NCBI GenBank assembly: GCA_903927025.1
Contig: CAIYLG010000014.1
Span: 1-64,000 of the forward strand
DNA from: an uncultured Armatimonadota bacterium
GTDB taxonomy: Bacteria > Armatimonadota > Fimbriimonadia > Fimbriimonadales > Fimbriimonadaceae
Direction of reading: 5' to 3'
Length of the DNA: 64,000 nt
Numbering within the stretch: position 1 is the first letter of the stretch; each line of letters opens with the position of its first letter. Made by a program: the position numbers and the translations under genes. The notes under the pieces were generated by a model. It worked only from the letters and a program-made list of their open reading frames with translations, had not been told where the DNA came from and searched no databases. This document shows positions 3,458 to 59,790 of the stretch, piece by piece.

Positions 3458-3952
3458 GGGGCCGCGATGCAGCCGCGGACTTTTTGCTTCAACTTCTCCC
3501 AAACCACGGGTAGGCGCTTCGCGCCAACCGCGTGGCTAGTTTACGAAACCTCGCTGAGGTTTTTCGGAAGCTTGACTGTCCGGTGTTGACGTTTAAACCC
3601 TATTACTGGCAGTTCATGGAATCCAAAAGCCTTGGCCCCTACGGATGGGGCCGCTTTGCGGGCCCTTGGACTTTTTGCTTCAACTTCTTCCAAACCACGG
3701 GTAGGCGCTTCGCGCCAACCGCGTGGCTAGTTTACGAAACCTCGCTGAGGTTTTTTGGAGGCTTGACTGTCCGGTGTTGACGTCTAAACCCTATTACTGG
3801 CAGTTCATGGAATCCAAAATGCCTTGGCCCCTACGGATGGGGCCGCGATGCAGCCGCGGACTTTTTGCTTCAACTTCTCCCAAACCACGGGTAGGCGCTT
3901 CGCGCCAACCGCGTGGCTAGTTTACGAAACCTCGCTGAGGTTTTTCGGAGGC
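3458..3952. repeat. 190-bp tandem repeat, 2.6 copies, with hairpins
   Basis: Units begin at 3458, 3647 and 3839 (the last is partial) and are nearly identical apart from a few substitutions and small indels. Each unit holds a large imperfect hairpin (first copy 3504-3535, CCACG arm pairing with CGTGG, inner stem GGCGC/GCGCC) and the terminator-like hairpin AAACCTCGCTGAGGTTT followed by more T (3546, 3737 and 3927). Short ORFs within it are repeat shadows. The flanks 3306-3457 and 3953-4034 contain nothing recognisable. The array sits between the accessory small-gene cluster and birA. Confidence 0.85.
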
Positions 3953-5593: not shown

Positions 5594-5662
5594 CGAGAAG
5601 GAGGTTTACCCCATCTGGTCAGCGCGGATGAGGTTTAAGTGAATTACGGGAGAGTGCAGCGC

Positions 5663-6157: not shown

Positions 6158-6369
6158 GCTTTTACGACTGTGAATTGGGTGGTTGGGATGCAGCGGCGTT
6201 GGAAATAATGGGATGGGTAGGCGTATTGGCGGTTCGGACGTGCCCCAAGGGGGCCGTTTCTGCGTAGCGAGGGGATGCGCTCGTGAAACCAGGGCTTCCC
6301 TGGTAACCGTGGTGCGCCCGCGGCCCCATACCGCAAGGCGGTAGTTTCCCCGGAAACGTGTGGGGCCCA

Positions 6370-6985
6370 TCCGGTTGATGGCGTGCGATCCATGCGGGTT
6401 GTCGATTCCGAGTTCCCGGAGAAACAACGCCTTGGGCGTTGGGCGTGCGTGGCGGCGCCTGGTACCAGGGTGGCCGCGGGAGCGGCGACCCTTCGCCTCG
6501 CAGAAACCACCCCGTTGGGGTGATTTGGGTTGATGTCGGGCGATCCCGATGGGACGTCGATTCCGGGTTTCCGGAGAAACAACGCCTTGGGCGTTGGGCG
6601 CGCATGGCGGCGGCTGGTACCAGGGTGGCCGCGGGAGCGGCGACCCTTCGCTTCGCAGAAACCACCCCGTTGGGGTGATTTGGGTTGATGTCGGGCGATC
6701 CCGATGGGTTGTCGATTCCGGGTTCCCGGAGAAACAACGCCTTTGGCGTTAGGCGTGCGTGGCGGCGCCTGGTACCAGGGTGGCCGCGGGAGCGGCCACC
6801 CTTCGTTTCGCAGAAACCACCCCGTTGGGGTGATTTGGGTTGATGTCGGGCGATCCCGATGGGTTGTCGATTCCGAGTTCCCGGAGAAACAACGCCGTTG
6901 GCGTTGGGCGTGCGTGGCGGCGCCTGGTACCAGGGTGGCCGCGGGAGCGGCGACCCTTCGCTTCGCACCACCTCGTTGAGGTGAA
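6370..6985. repeat. 155-bp tandem repeat, about four copies, stem-loop rich
   Basis: The anchor GAAACAACGCC recurs at 6421, 6576, 6731 and 6886, exactly 155 bases apart; the first copy has a degenerate left part and the last is cut at about 6985. Each unit has short palindromes with three-base loops: AACGCC/GGCGTT (loop TTG, TTG, TTT, GTT in order) and CACCCC/GGGGTG, which in the last copy is CACCTC/GAGGTG, changed on both sides. Since 155 is not a multiple of three, ORFs appear in all frames but are artefacts. The stretch 6158-6369 holds more small hairpins (for example ACCAGGG/CCCTGGT near 6292) and no gene. Confidence 0.9.
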
Positions 6986-7834
6986 TTACCGCCCGCCGAG
7001 GCCGCTTAGGTTGATCCCTCGCAGGAAGTACCGCTGGGCGAAGAAGAACAACACGACTGTAGGCAGGAGGTGAATCATGGAGGCGGCCATTACCTGTTCG
7101 AAATTCGTGCCGAAGCTGTCTTGGAACATCCTGAGGCCGATGCTTACCGTGTATTTCTCAGGCGAGTTCAGATAGATGAGCGGGCCCTCGAAATTGTCCC
7201 ACTGACCCAGGAATGAGAACAGGGCGACCGAGGCGAGCACCGGGCCGCTGAGGGGGAGGAGCACGCGCCACCAGACGGCGAAGTAGCTGGCCCCATCGAT
7301 CATCGCCGCCTCATCGAACTCCTTGGGAATCGAAAGGAAGAACTGCCGAATCAGGAAGATATTGAATGCCCCACCGCCGAAGAAGGCCGGTGCGATCAGG
7401 GGGTAGTAGGTGTCGATGGCGTGAAGCTGACGCCAGATGAGGAAGACAGGAATCTGGGTCACCTGCCCGGGGAGCATCATCGTTGCCAGCAACATGTAGA
7501 AAAGCGGGTTTCTGGCTCGAAACTGAAATCTCGAGAAGCCGTAGGCCACCAGGGAGCCTGAGACGACACTCGCGACGGTCGTGGTCGCGGTGATCAGGAC
7601 TGTGTTCAGCATGAACCGCGAGAAGGGAAGCTCTGTCCATGCCTTGGGGAAGTTGGACCACACGGGATGCCTGGGAATCAACTGGCCCGGGTTTGAGGCA
7701 AACTCCTCACTCGACTTGAGCGCGGTGGCAAACGTCCAGATGAACGGCACCGTGAACAGAATCGCCCCACCGATGAGCAGCGCGTAGACGAAGCTGCGGG
7801 AGAACCTGCCGGTCCATAAATCGGTTCGGGTCAC
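6986..7834 (-). CDS. Sugar ABC transporter permease, MalG/UgpE type
   Basis: This 282-residue inner-membrane permease has six predicted helices and the BPD-transport EAA loop at about 172-181 (EFDEAAMIDG), where the ATPase docks. Its order after a MalF-type permease and a solute-binding lipoprotein fits a CUT1 carbohydrate or glycoside importer. The ATG overlaps the upstream permease stop by 4 bases. No ATP-binding subunit is encoded nearby; CUT1 systems often share one MsmK/UgpC-type ATPase encoded elsewhere. Its stop touches the 155-bp repeat array. Confidence 0.9.
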   Translation of the reverse strand: MTRTDLWTGRFSRSFVYALLIGGAILFTVPFIWTFATALKSSEEFASNPGQLIPRHPVWSNFPKAWTELPFSRFMLNTVLITATTTVASVVSGSLVAYGFSRFQFRARNPLFYMLLATMMLPGQVTQIPVFLIWRQLHAIDTYYPLIAPAFFGGGAFNIFLIRQFFLSIPKEFDEAAMIDGASYFAVWWRVLLPLSGPVLASVALFSFLGQWDNFEGPLIYLNSPEKYTVSIGLRMFQDSFGTNFEQVMAASMIHLLPTVVLFFFAQRYFLRGINLSGLGGR

Positions 7835-14622: not shown

Positions 14623-15939
14623 TTAGATCAAGCCCTCCGGCAAAATTTCCCGGGCCAACATCTCTTCCCAGGAATCTCGTCTCTGGATGAGGCACAGGCT
14701 CCCGTCTTTTCGAACAAGTGCAGTCGCCGGGCGCGGGTATCGGTTGTAGTTGCTTGCCATAGATGCGTTGTAGGCGCCGGTGCAGAGGACTTGGAGCAGA
14801 TCTCCCGCCTTCAAATCCGACGGCAGTTCCACCGCATCAAAAAGCTTGTCCGTTTCACAGTGCTTTCCAGAAACAGTGACGGTTTGAGAGCCGGTTGGGT
14901 CGGCATTCGGCGCGACTCGCTCAACTGTGTATTTCGACCCGTAAAGGGCAGGTCTGGGGTTGTCGCTGAGACCGCCATCCACCGCGACATAGGTTCTTCT
15001 TCCGACTTCAGGTGCAGGCACTGTTTTAATAACGCCAACCCGGTAGAGCGTAACGCCGCTTTCCGCGATCAGGGATCGTCCTGGCTCCTGGCCGAGAATA
15101 GGGTCAATCCCGGAGCCCGCCAAGGCCTCGATGACCGACTGGACTACAAGTCGGCAGTAGTCTTCAACTCCCATCGGCTGCTGGTCTGCAGTGTAGGCCA
15201 CCCCGAGTCCGCCTCCCACGTTGAGGTACTCGGCCGCGAAGCCAAGTTTCTCCTTCATGTCCACCGCGAACGCGGCGATCAGTTCGCCACCCGAGCGCTG
15301 TGCCTCCGGGTCGAGGAGCTGGGAACCGACGTGGCAGTGAAACCCATACAGGTTCAGCTTGAGTTCCAGGCACTTCGCCGCCGCTTTCTCGGCAGAGCCG
15401 TCCGCAATGTTGAATCCAAACTTGGTATCCGCCTGCCCGGTGGACATCTTGGCGTGGGTGATCGGATCCACTCCGGGGGCAAGACGGAGGACGATCTTGG
15501 TCGCGCTGCGCTGAGCCGGAGTCATGAGGCCGTCCAGCAAGGCGAGTTCTTCAAAACTGTCGGCGACGATGTGTCCAATTCCGGCGGTTAGGGCGAATTC
15601 CAATTCTGCGGCCTGTTTGTTGTTTCCGTGAAGATGACACTCGTCGGCGGGAACGCCTGCGGCAAGCGCCACTCGCAGCTCGCCTTCGCTGGCCACGTCG
15701 ATGGAGCAGCCTTCCTGGTAGGCAATCTTGATGAGGGCAAGAGTGGAATTTGCCTTGCTTGCGTAGCTGATCTTTCCGCGGCTGTAGGCGGTTTTGAATG
15801 CATTTCGATACCGCTGAATGCGGCTCCGAAAGTGCTCTTCGCTCACCACGTACAGCGGGGTGCCGAACTCTGAGGCAAGCTGAATCGCTGTCTCTTCAGA
15901 CAGCCGAAATCTGCTGTCGACAACCGGAGAGGCAACCAT
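14623..15939 (-). CDS. lysA: Diaminopimelate decarboxylase
   Basis: This is about 438 residues. It is the PLP enzyme that decarboxylates meso-diaminopimelate to L-lysine. The PLP lysine is in YASKAN (K62), the phosphate-binding glycine motif is VGGGLG, EPGRS follows, and the C-terminal barrel has CTGAYNASMASNYN. ATG 15939 is used because the 20 residues upstream are not family-like and approach the divergent dxr start. It heads the minus-strand run with the M50 protease and trpS. Confidence 0.94.
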   Translation of the reverse strand: MVASPVVDSRFRLSEETAIQLASEFGTPLYVVSEEHFRSRIQRYRNAFKTAYSRGKISYASKANSTLALIKIAYQEGCSIDVASEGELRVALAAGVPADECHLHGNNKQAAELEFALTAGIGHIVADSFEELALLDGLMTPAQRSATKIVLRLAPGVDPITHAKMSTGQADTKFGFNIADGSAEKAAAKCLELKLNLYGFHCHVGSQLLDPEAQRSGGELIAAFAVDMKEKLGFAAEYLNVGGGLGVAYTADQQPMGVEDYCRLVVQSVIEALAGSGIDPILGQEPGRSLIAESGVTLYRVGVIKTVPAPEVGRRTYVAVDGGLSDNPRPALYGSKYTVERVAPNADPTGSQTVTVSGKHCETDKLFDAVELPSDLKAGDLLQVLCTGAYNASMASNYNRYPRPATALVRKDGSLCLIQRRDSWEEMLAREILPEGLI

Positions 15940-57805: not shown

Positions 57806-57861
57806 TAATCGAATTGTTTCCGGTTGGCACTGGCTGACGGGCATCGGCGGGTGGACGCCAT

Positions 57862-57902
57862 TTTCCGGAGAAACAACCCCGTTGGGGTTGTTTCTCCGGA
57901 AA
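57862..57902. repeat. Perfect 19-bp palindrome related to the 155-bp array
   Basis: TTTCCGGAGAAACAACCCC (57862-57880) and its exact complement (57884-57902) flank the loop GTT. Its left arm matches the 155-bp repeat segment TTTCCGGAGAAACAACGCC near 6568 except for one base in the stem, where the partner base is changed too. It lies between convergent genes and may terminate both. Confidence 0.75.
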
Positions 57903-57952
57903 CCTCTTAGATTCCATCACCATGGCCCATGCGAATTGGCAGAGGAGGCAGC

Positions 57953-58876
57953 CTACAGAAAGAGCTTTAGGAGCTCGGCGGAGCCGGTGGTCATGCCGGT
58001 TCTTGAGAACAGGCTGAGGCCCTGTTTCAGGTCTTCTCGTAGATCCTTCTTTACGGTTTCCGTCACGACTCGGTCTGAGTCGTCCATCACGTGACCACTC
58101 AATCGCAATGCGATCGTTTCTCCGACGTAGAAGCACGCTTCCAGTGCTTGGACGGGCGCAGGGTTGATGGGGAGGCTGAAGCCGATGGTGACGCCAACGT
58201 GAGTCATGCCTAGCTGGACGTTGCGAAGGGAAAAGGCGTCGGTTTGTCCGATTGGGGTGACGCTTAATAATGGGCAGGGATGCCCCGGAAGTCGCCAGTC
58301 GAATGACCCGGCTGGTGAATACTCCAAACCTAGGTTTGAGCAGGCGATCCAGAGATCTTTCTCGGTAAACGATGCGGTTGAGGACATCACCGTGAGCTCA
58401 AAGCCGATATCCAGCATATCCTTTGCCTGCTGGAGGTTTCGAACGGCCCCATTCACCTCAGCGGGGACGGGCATCGCGAGGGCTCGCCGTTGAATGTAGG
58501 GCGCAAATCGTTCAGCAAGCTCCAACAGGTGCTTTGCGGACGCTCCGGAGATGCTCCCTAGAGGCGTGAGCAGGTCCCAGGTCATCGCGAGGGAATCGTA
58601 AGAGCCATCGACCGCTGGCGTAAGGGGCTGCCATTGAAGGTCAGCCGGCCTCATTGCGAGCAGGTTGGGCTGACCGAGTGCTTGAAACCAATCCGGGCTC
58701 AAGAGCTGTGCGGCATTTCCGGCGAGGACGGTCCTCTGGCCAACGAACTCAATAACAAACTGGACCTTGTGAAGCGGCCCAGTCTTAACAGGGAAGTCAA
58801 GCTCAAATGGTTTGAGCGCGATCGTTGGATCGGGACCCAAGGGCTGACCAAATAAATCTGGTCCGCCCGGTGTCAA
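57953..58876 (-). CDS. Unknown protein with a ZipA-C-like C-terminal half
   Basis: This 307-residue soluble protein starts at TTG 58876, overlapping the era stop (TTGA), so it is coupled to era. The N-terminal 130 residues are Pro/Leu rich. The rest (FELTVMSSTASFTEKDLWIA, AGSFDWRLP, AFSLRNVQLGMTHVGVTIGF, VQALEACFYVGETIALRLSG) follows the order of the ZipA C-terminal FtsZ-binding domain: strand-helix, SL.N, a MTHVGVTIGF-like strand, then a helix and DD block. No ZipA membrane anchor is present. The match is by eye only. Confidence 0.5.
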   Translation of the reverse strand: MTPGGPDLFGQPLGPDPTIALKPFELDFPVKTGPLHKVQFVIEFVGQRTVLAGNAAQLLSPDWFQALGQPNLLAMRPADLQWQPLTPAVDGSYDSLAMTWDLLTPLGSISGASAKHLLELAERFAPYIQRRALAMPVPAEVNGAVRNLQQAKDMLDIGFELTVMSSTASFTEKDLWIACSNLGLEYSPAGSFDWRLPGHPCPLLSVTPIGQTDAFSLRNVQLGMTHVGVTIGFSLPINPAPVQALEACFYVGETIALRLSGHVMDDSDRVVTETVKKDLREDLKQGLSLFSRTGMTTGSAELLKLFL

Positions 58877-59790
58877 TCGCTGTACTCCAGGTCGTGGAGG
58901 ATCCTTGGGCTCATTCGCCAGTCTTCGCTCACCTTGACGTGGAGCTGAAGAAAGACCTTGTGGCCAAGCATCTCTTCGATCTCAAGTCTGGCTTCGGTAC
59001 CAATCTTCTTGAGGAATTGGCCCTGCTTGCCAATGATGATCGCCCGCTGGCTGGCTTTCTCGACGAGGATGGTTGCGCCAATACGCGTCATCGCTCCATC
59101 TTCTTCCCAGTCGTCAACTAGGACCGCGACGGAGTGAGGAACTTCTTCGCGAGCGGCGTGAAGGATCTTTTCTCGAACGAGTTCAGCGGTGAGGAACCGG
59201 CTGGACTGGTCTGTAAACTCATCCTCTGAGTAAAGGGGATCCTGGACCGGGAGCTTCGCGACAATCAGCTCGATCAACTTGTCGACGTTATGGCCGCGAA
59301 TAGCGGTGGTCAACATGAGATCGTCTGGACCGACGCCTAGAAGGGTGCTGAATGCGTCAACATTTCGTTGGACGTCCTCGGCTTTCAGCAGGTCCATCTT
59401 GTTCATGCAAAGAACCTTGGGAAGCTTAATATCCTGCTTGAGAAGCTTGGCCGCCTCTTTGTCCTGCTCGCCGGGGTGGTGGGAGCCATCGGCGACATAG
59501 AGAATGACGTCGGCATCTCCAAGCGACATTCTCGCCTGCTCAATCATCGCCTTGCCAAGCTGCGTGTGCGGCTCGTGGATTCCAGGCGTGTCGATGAAGG
59601 CGATTTGGTAGGTTGGGGTGGTAACAATGCCAATGACGCGGCGTCGCGTGGTTTGGGGTTTGTTGCTGACAATGGACACCTTCTGACCCACGATGTGGTT
59701 CATGAGGGTGCTCTTGCCAACGTTTGGCTTTCCGAGCAGGGCAACGTACCCTGATCGGAAGCCTGTGGAAGCGGCTGAGTTATCTGACAT
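58873..59790 (-). CDS. era: GTPase Era
   Basis: This 305-residue ribosome-assembly GTPase binds the 3' end of 16S rRNA. G1 GKPNVGKST (20-28), G2 with KPQTTRRRV, G3 DTPG, G4 CMNKMD and a C-terminal KH domain (IIGKQGQFLKKIGTEARLEI, then HVKVSEDWR) are all present. Length is typical. It starts 7 bases after the GH42-like gene and its stop overlaps the next gene. Confidence 0.97.
   Translation of the reverse strand: MSDNSAASTGFRSGYVALLGKPNVGKSTLMNHIVGQKVSIVSNKPQTTRRRVIGIVTTPTYQIAFIDTPGIHEPHTQLGKAMIEQARMSLGDADVILYVADGSHHPGEQDKEAAKLLKQDIKLPKVLCMNKMDLLKAEDVQRNVDAFSTLLGVGPDDLMLTTAIRGHNVDKLIELIVAKLPVQDPLYSEDEFTDQSSRFLTAELVREKILHAAREEVPHSVAVLVDDWEEDGAMTRIGATILVEKASQRAIIIGKQGQFLKKIGTEARLEIEEMLGHKVFLQLHVKVSEDWRMSPRILHDLEYSD

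Follow-up and report, generated by a model that had tools for sequence, protein, structure and literature searches.

What kind of element is a tandem array of 155-bp units that keeps its palindromes while the letters of their stems change? The array lies in the window, by which we mean the whole 64,000-nucleotide stretch of DNA analysed here, from the genome of an uncultured Armatimonadota bacterium. Its neighbours, which both read on the minus strand, are a permease gene (6986-7834) and a hypothetical gene; the permease stop codon is 2 nt from the end of hairpin A in the last unit. Tandem Repeats Finder (TRF) places the array at 6373-6967 (period 155, 3.8 copies, 93% matches, 0% indels, score 1043), and TRF and alignment together give four 155-bp units spanning 6373-6988, which differ by several percent. 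A preliminary description had reported four units at a constant 155-base period, and this holds except for the last hairpin of unit 4, where a 4-bp deletion (GAAA) before hairpin A takes that hairpin off the 155-bp register. The loops it gave for hairpin C (AACGCC-loop-GGCGTT; TTG, TTG, TTT and GTT in units 1-4) and the paired change of hairpin A from CACCCC/GGGGTG in units 1-3 to CACCTC/GAGGTG in unit 4 are likewise correct by sequence. Just beyond the range that it covered (6370-6985) sits a related half, 6236-6372, inverted with respect to the four units and carrying hairpins A, B and C from outside in. Copies were scored with a covariance model, R1, made from 32 half-modules of this genome that lie away from any transposase gene and outside the contigs that carry the genome's two subclass-1.2-like tnpA genes (see below). 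The features of the array are:

6236-6372, plus strand: left half-module at the array start (R1 117.6 bits; left and right profiles cross-match on opposite strands)
6373-6527, minus strand: right half-module, unit 1 (TRF, alignment; R1 match 6397-6527, 118.5 bits)
6528-6682, minus strand: right half-module, unit 2 (TRF, alignment; R1 match 6552-6682, 123 bits)
6683-6837, minus strand: right half-module, unit 3 (TRF, alignment; R1 match 6707-6837, 122.4 bits)
6838-6988, minus strand: right half-module, unit 4, truncated (TRF, alignment; R1 match 6862-6988, 108.6 bits)
6426-6440, unstranded: hairpin C of unit 1, AACGCC TTG GGCGTT (sequence; helix 3, 94.0% of cells paired in 32 copies)
6467-6492, unstranded: hairpin B of unit 1, AGGGTGGCCGC GGGA GCGGCGACCCT, one mismatch (inverted repeat; helix 2, 92.2% paired)
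6508-6522, unstranded: hairpin A of unit 1, CACCCC GTT GGGGTG (sequence; helix 1, 87.5% paired)
6969-6983, unstranded: hairpin A of unit 4, covarying form, CACCTC GTT GAGGTG (sequence, alignment)

From outside in, each half-module runs from hairpin A through a linker to hairpin B, which ends in ACCCTGG; a variable spacer, hairpin C and finally a tag follow. The consensus of 32 half-modules holds the three hairpins in about 136 positions. The 32 rows used for covariation were hand-picked from profile matches: complete or almost complete copies were taken and shorter fragments excluded. Pairing was found in 91.1% of 573 cells, compared to 70.5 ± 1.2% in shuffles, and 110 cells were doubly changed, compared to 40.9 ± 4.5 in shuffles (none of 500 reaching 110) and 8-24 with slid partners. 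Changes occur on both sides in 15 of the 19 pairs. The preliminary description had proposed selection on pairing, whether as DNA or as RNA, with genome-wide copies as the check; the 110 doubly changed paired cells across the 32 copies bear this out, and unpaired cells are fewer (51; the outermost pair of stem A accounts for 11 of them and a single pair of stem B for 12). The stems exist in many forms (23 for stem A and 11 for stem C among the 32 rows, mean column identity 0.75 and 0.76, respectively). Identity is 0.87-1.0 at the first two loop positions, 0.56-1.0 in the linker (12 of 16 positions at 0.8 or above) and 0.79-0.97 in the tag. Departures from pairing are G-T in 14 cases and A-C in 11, a balance that, as a weak test, gives no sign of either RNA strand being favoured.

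Single units folded as RNA are not exceptionally stable (z of −0.68, −1.37, −2.60 and −2.57), and a full element of left and right half (L-R) gives similar values as RNA (−2.59) and as DNA (−2.67); on these grounds one long RNA fold was rejected. What is conserved is a set of separate hairpins and not a fold of the whole unit. A coding reading was also rejected, despite open reading frames that do cross the array: the stems are compensated and the period is not a multiple of three, the latter being the argument by which the preliminary description had already spoken against coding.

The units have many relatives in the genome (5.25 Mb in 66 contigs). A search with one unit gives 23 places and a search with the left module 17; the linker GTTTCTGCGAAGCGAAGGG, allowing up to 3 mismatches, occurs 37 times compared to 3 for a reversed control. 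Since the left and right module profiles match each other on opposite strands, the two modules are related inverted halves; the 155-bp unit is one half of a bipartite palindromic element. Complete L-R elements measure about 290 bp (e.g. C26:28517-28807 and C48:67169-67459). At E≤1e-3, R1 finds 92 half-modules at 60 separate places; their 28 adjacent pairs are inward-facing in 16 cases, tandem in nine (three in this array) and outward-facing in three. A further copy lies elsewhere in the window:

57846-57980, minus strand: diverged half-module of the array's family (R1 35.8 bits, E 5.5e-8 over 77 kb)

Among relatives the distribution is patchy. Half-modules were found with R1 at E≤1e-3 in 5 of 60 (42, 32, 14, 5 and 3 copies), in a scan with stricter filters that returned 48 of this genome's own copies versus 92 and from which weak copies may escape. 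Within the same genus, 3 of 19 genomes carry them (42, 32 and 3 copies) and 16 gave none at this threshold.

Half-modules also stand beside transposase genes. We collected 34 loci with a PF01797 gene from this genome, which has four, and from nine of the ten relatives searched. The product carries the motif Y---Q--HH in 19 of these loci. R1 matches at E≤1e-3 occur in seven, all among the 19, and none was found at this threshold in the 15 other PF01797 loci examined. They lie on both sides of tnpA at L153, L072 and L132 and are one-sided or less regular at L136, L129, L152 and L131 (at L131, one match 448 bp away from the gene). Two-sided matches are also present at L310 and L321, from the same family and from genera outside the model. 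Wherever halves occupy both sides they face inward, i.e. they are mutually inverted. A comparison that uses no model, of the upstream flank against the reverse-complemented downstream flank, scored 10 of the 19 loci above all 342 cross-pairs and six at intermediate values; at the remaining three (L128, L134 and L136) scores were at background and this comparison found no inverted flank match. The hint at small RNAs in the preliminary description is not supported by these results: the units belong to a dispersed, patchy family that also forms inverted flanks of transposase genes.

The TnpA profile (A3) matches the ISHp608 TnpA 2a6m (E 1.6e-12). The NCBIfam model transpos_IS200, which has its cut-off at 55 bits, gives scores of 58.3, 54.2 and 49.3; scores with the REP_Tyr_transpos model reach at most 21.5 bits against a cut-off of 80, and H56, H58 and Y116 are invariant in 17 aligned proteins. 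Judged by its sequence, the partner protein is an IS200-type HUH/Y1 enzyme; the Y---Q--HH motif is the single character that suggests placing it in TnpA_Y1 subclass 1.2. There are two genes of this kind in this genome (C41:6943-7392 and C58:14243-14695) and up to 10 matches in some relatives, e.g. G009. In the Armatimonadota group, 113 of 291 genomes have matches at E≤1e-3, the weak ones of which may be other Y1 types. The C58 gene is bracketed by half-modules at C58:14046-14142 (plus strand) and 14696-14824 (minus strand), which is the L-R orientation with the gene in the middle. The R1 scores there are 34.7 and 35.5 bits (E about 1e-7), compared to 108-123 bits for the array units. Because these ends score only about 35 bits, it is uncertain which tnpA serves the 155-bp family.

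The other gene, on C41, has its own repeat, which forms a second array in the window:

3458-3952, unstranded: palindrome-rich array, period 191, 2.6 copies (TRF; repeat family around the other subclass-1.2-like tnpA)

Of 27 genomic places of this repeat, 12 fall in C41:4416-7896, around the tnpA gene, whose flanks show an inverted match of about 300 bp (score 113) and a direct score of 509. One genome thus seems to carry two pairs of tnpA and repeat, both repeats standing in tandem arrays in this window.

When named genomes were scanned with the same profile, A3, the best 80 of at least 580 relatives were kept; they suggest that the arrangement extends to other phyla. By record titles the 80 loci are mostly from Verrucomicrobia and Planctomycetota, with Bacteroidetes, Lentisphaerae, Acidobacteria, Armatimonadetes, Deltaproteobacteria and others also represented, and all 80 have Y...Q..HH. 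(L203 among them is the same locus as L135, so that these 80 and the 19 above make 98 distinct loci.) With two loci excluded for having less than 150 nt on one side, 42 of the 78 others show inverted flank similarity above the 99th percentile of 920 cross-pairs; direct similarity passed the same threshold in 26 of 78, which is to be expected of loci with tandem half-modules. A ground-plan rule (short hairpin, gap, AGC, longer hairpin), written after viewing the 80 loci, fires in 108 of 158 flanks; in control windows placed at three distances it does so in 5 of 141, 9 of 139 and 3 of 136. Its rate over background windows is 8 in 442. For the 19 nearer loci the corresponding counts are 21 of 37 flanks and 2 of 36 and 0 of 36 controls. 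In 24 previously unviewed loci, a set that left out L303-L306, L308, L309 and L313 as coming from genomes already viewed, it fires in 22 of 47 flanks and in 0 of 44 and 0 of 42 controls. Two of the 24, L311 and L319, are identical to L204 and L232, and L318 is similar to L232; all six of their flanks are negative, and their removal leaves 22 of 41. The strict rule misses all five modules of the window's array, because hairpin B is interrupted or the AGC changed.

The candidate RNA family Acido-Lenti-1 (RF01687) adjoins the same type of gene. A 2010 table (PMC2864571) enters it among the probable RNAs, with Acidobacteria and Lentisphaerae as its source groups, and a 2026 paper describes its function as little known (PMC13298647); in the parts of these two open-licence sources that were available, we found no link to a transposase. 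Among the 80 tnpA loci (best 80 of at least 580) RF01687 has 35 matches at gathering score. Of these, 34 lie within 380 bp of tnpA, a zone of 58.7 kb out of 382.9 kb. Matches upstream of the gene are on the minus strand and those downstream on the plus strand in 31 of these 34 cases, with one exception each in L210, L202 and L232. At least one match occurs in 17 of these best 80 loci and matches on both sides occur in eight. Twelve genomes were hand-chosen from the tnpA loci and scanned: RF01687 was found at E≤1e-3 in 11 (above cut-off in nine), compared to 0 of 14 control genomes. Among the matches listed, there are up to 62 per genome, and minus/plus neighbours stand about 90-105 bp apart (e.g. 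G064:C255:1681-1862 and G068:C55:39681-39875). Tandem runs occur beside tnpA in a deltaproteobacterial locus (L202:3008-3322, three copies, spacing 107) and in a planctomycete one (L223:645-952, four copies, spacing 86-90), and are the same type of arrangement as the array in the window. The order hairpin B, CTA, about 12 nt, hairpin A is shared, by alignment, with the outer part of the right half. However, the sequence of the window family is too distant for the RF01687 model, which gave no match at E≤1 in window positions 6200-7000 and none in 19 loci of the window's genus and family. As none of those 19 loci matches, the likeness in this clade is one of ground plan and not of sequence. No Rfam family reached its gathering score within the window; a ClpQY_promoter hit at 6243-6285 (16.2 bits versus 42) was rejected.

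We inspected 13 nadC neighbourhoods, all lacking half-modules, and found no clean empty site corresponding to the window locus. A permease homologue lies beside nadC in only one of them, from G004 of the same genus (L283:13-2349), and the other 12 say little on insertion. In G004 the stop codons of the permease and hypothetical genes nearly touch, no array lies between them, and the hypothetical gene, which sits between the permease gene and nadC, has the opposite orientation to that in the window. In the window, a nine-base direct repeat, GTGAATTAC, is present at 6981-6989, at the permease stop codon and beside the last hairpin of the array, and again at 5639-5647, between the hypothetical gene and nadC; it is possibly a trace of the rearrangement that brought the hypothetical gene and the array here, or due to chance. 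As regards the gene, a scan of viral contigs by short peptide patterns gave 89 pattern matches to the TnpA alignment, none of which was confirmed, and 2 of 72,556 plasmid records have TnpA matches. Given these two results, tnpA behaves more as a resident than as a spreading insertion sequence.

IS200/IS605 elements have hairpins at both ends in the same orientation. The present system shares with them a Y1 HUH TnpA (PF01797 and PDB matches) but differs in that its ends are mutually inverted with several hairpins each, and in that its gene is rare on plasmids and unconfirmed in viral contigs. The system also resembles the REP/BIME/REPIN sequences and their TnpA_REP (RAYT), the 'REPtrons', which the available parts of PMC3733652 and PMC6006769 describe as inverted pairs and clusters of palindromes in many gene-free copies, with a low-copy Y1 HUH gene flanked by copies. 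Those sources give REP hairpins of 20-40 bp with a GTAG or GGAG-like tetranucleotide at the foot, whereas the halves here are 130-155 bp long with three hairpins; moreover, the consensus of 32 half-modules has no GTAG at the hairpin foot, and the protein has Y---Q--HH and at most a weak REP_Tyr_transpos match (21.5 versus 80 bits). We found no open-licence literature joining Armatimonadetes with repetitive extragenic palindromes.

According to the available parts of PMC6006769, TnpA_Y1 subclass 1.2 has the Y---Q--HH signature, comes mostly from Cyanobacteria and Bacteroidetes and is generally without typical IS200 end structures. The genes described here resemble it in that motif (19 loci, and 80 of 80 among the best 80), an IS200-like core and perhaps few genes per type, and differ in their multi-hairpin inverted flanks and their occurrence in Armatimonadota, Verrucomicrobia, Planctomycetota and others. 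Class 3 TnpA_Y1, subclass 2.6 (with 'atypical secondary structures') and the TIRYTs with their TIRtrons are similar in that their Y1 genes lie between unusual structures or inverted repeats, copies of which are also scattered through the genome (for class 3, about 600 in Solibacter); they are set apart by description, class 3 having Y----Q and a CnGA foot and TIRYTs being mainly subclass 2.1 with a GGGGWSAS motif (available parts of PMC6006769 and PMC3733652).

Taking these data together, we consider it highly probable that the array consists of REP/BIME-like DNA ends acted on in trans by a subclass-1.2 TnpA, with one half tandemly multiplied; mobilisation itself we infer. The sequences show that the halves combine compensated, variable stems with mostly constant loops and linkers, often form inward L-R pairs and flank, also facing inward, Y1 HUH tnpA genes with the subclass 1.2 signature. 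Against the reading speak the lack of a clean empty site among the loci inspected, the low R1 scores at C58, the three loci at background in the flank comparison, the direct flank similarity in 26 of 78 loci, the five modules of the window's array that the strict ground-plan rule misses and the distant match at L131. It is known that IS200/IS605 TnpA and TnpA_REP recognise hairpins in single-stranded DNA. By analogy with IS608 TnpA and TnpA_REP, the enzyme would recognise the half-module hairpins in single-stranded DNA and move or copy the halves in trans, which would leave most copies gene-free, as in REPINs and BIMEs, and tnpA low in copy number. Stems may drift yet stay paired because selection acts on the recognition of paired hairpins, and an HUH enzyme of this kind would fit the drifting paired stems, the steadier loops and tags, the inverted pairs and the gene-free copies. 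The array could have arisen from the right half of one L-R element, multiplied in tandem by slippage, unequal exchange or repeated TnpA action.

Such strong covariation, with 110 doubly changed cells, and a last hairpin 2 nt from the permease stop codon would also suit a small RNA with a defined structure or an RNA element that acts in cis downstream of the permease gene, for instance as terminator or mRNA stabiliser, with the covariation then reflecting RNA folding; RF01687, with its similar ground plan, is itself listed as a probable RNA in the available part of PMC2864571. This is nonetheless improbable, since the halves form inverted pairs and surround tnpA genes, are patchy among species of one genus, match no Rfam family at gathering score in the window, show balanced G-T and A-C departures and fold alike as RNA and as DNA. 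It is scarcely credible that the array arose by tandem duplication of some common intergenic palindrome, or of a MITE belonging to an unrelated transposase, and that the likeness to tnpA flanks is coincidental: with 35 bits at C58 it is uncertain which gene is cognate to precisely this subfamily, but several tnpA loci, some of them from genera outside the model, have two-sided, correctly oriented R1 matches, and none of the 15 other PF01797 loci examined has any at E≤1e-3.

A domesticated system, in which TnpA and repeats are kept for a host function such as chromosome structure or DNA processing and now hardly move, is possible though doubtful. Domestication of this kind has been argued for RAYTs. 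It would agree with the two such genes in this genome, with their absence from confirmed viral matches and near-absence from plasmid records, unlike a spreading insertion sequence, and with array copies that differ by several percent. Against it, copy numbers vary widely within the genus (92 here, then 42, 32 and 3, with 16 genomes without), and G004 lacks the array at the equivalent locus, the adjacent gene there being inverted too. Domestication is in any case compatible with past mobility.

Returning to the REP/BIME-like reading, a broader version of it seems reasonably probable to us, namely that subclass-1.2 TnpA and the 'Acido-Lenti-1 RNA' form one further REP-like single-stranded DNA system, besides IS200/IS605 and GTAG-RAYT, with multi-hairpin inverted ends and present in many phyla. 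RF01687 would then represent DNA ends rather than RNA, the two arrays of the window would be two variants served by separate tnpA genes, and half-modules would repeatedly be multiplied in tandem as a by-product. If this is true, a published transposase group that had no partner gains a concrete DNA substrate that is testable in vitro, and a candidate RNA family has a DNA explanation. More generally, covariation need not mean RNA, as an HUH enzyme reading single-stranded DNA could leave the same mark.

Two minor observations concern sequence details. In relatives (L076-L101; G007 and G025) GCGTC or CCGTC often follows hairpins A and C, where the window family carries TGTTTCT; a label of CGTC REP, which by published description have no transposase, was rejected for this reason. 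Further along the window, TRF reports a short tandem repeat at 59125-59176 (period 24, 2.2 copies).
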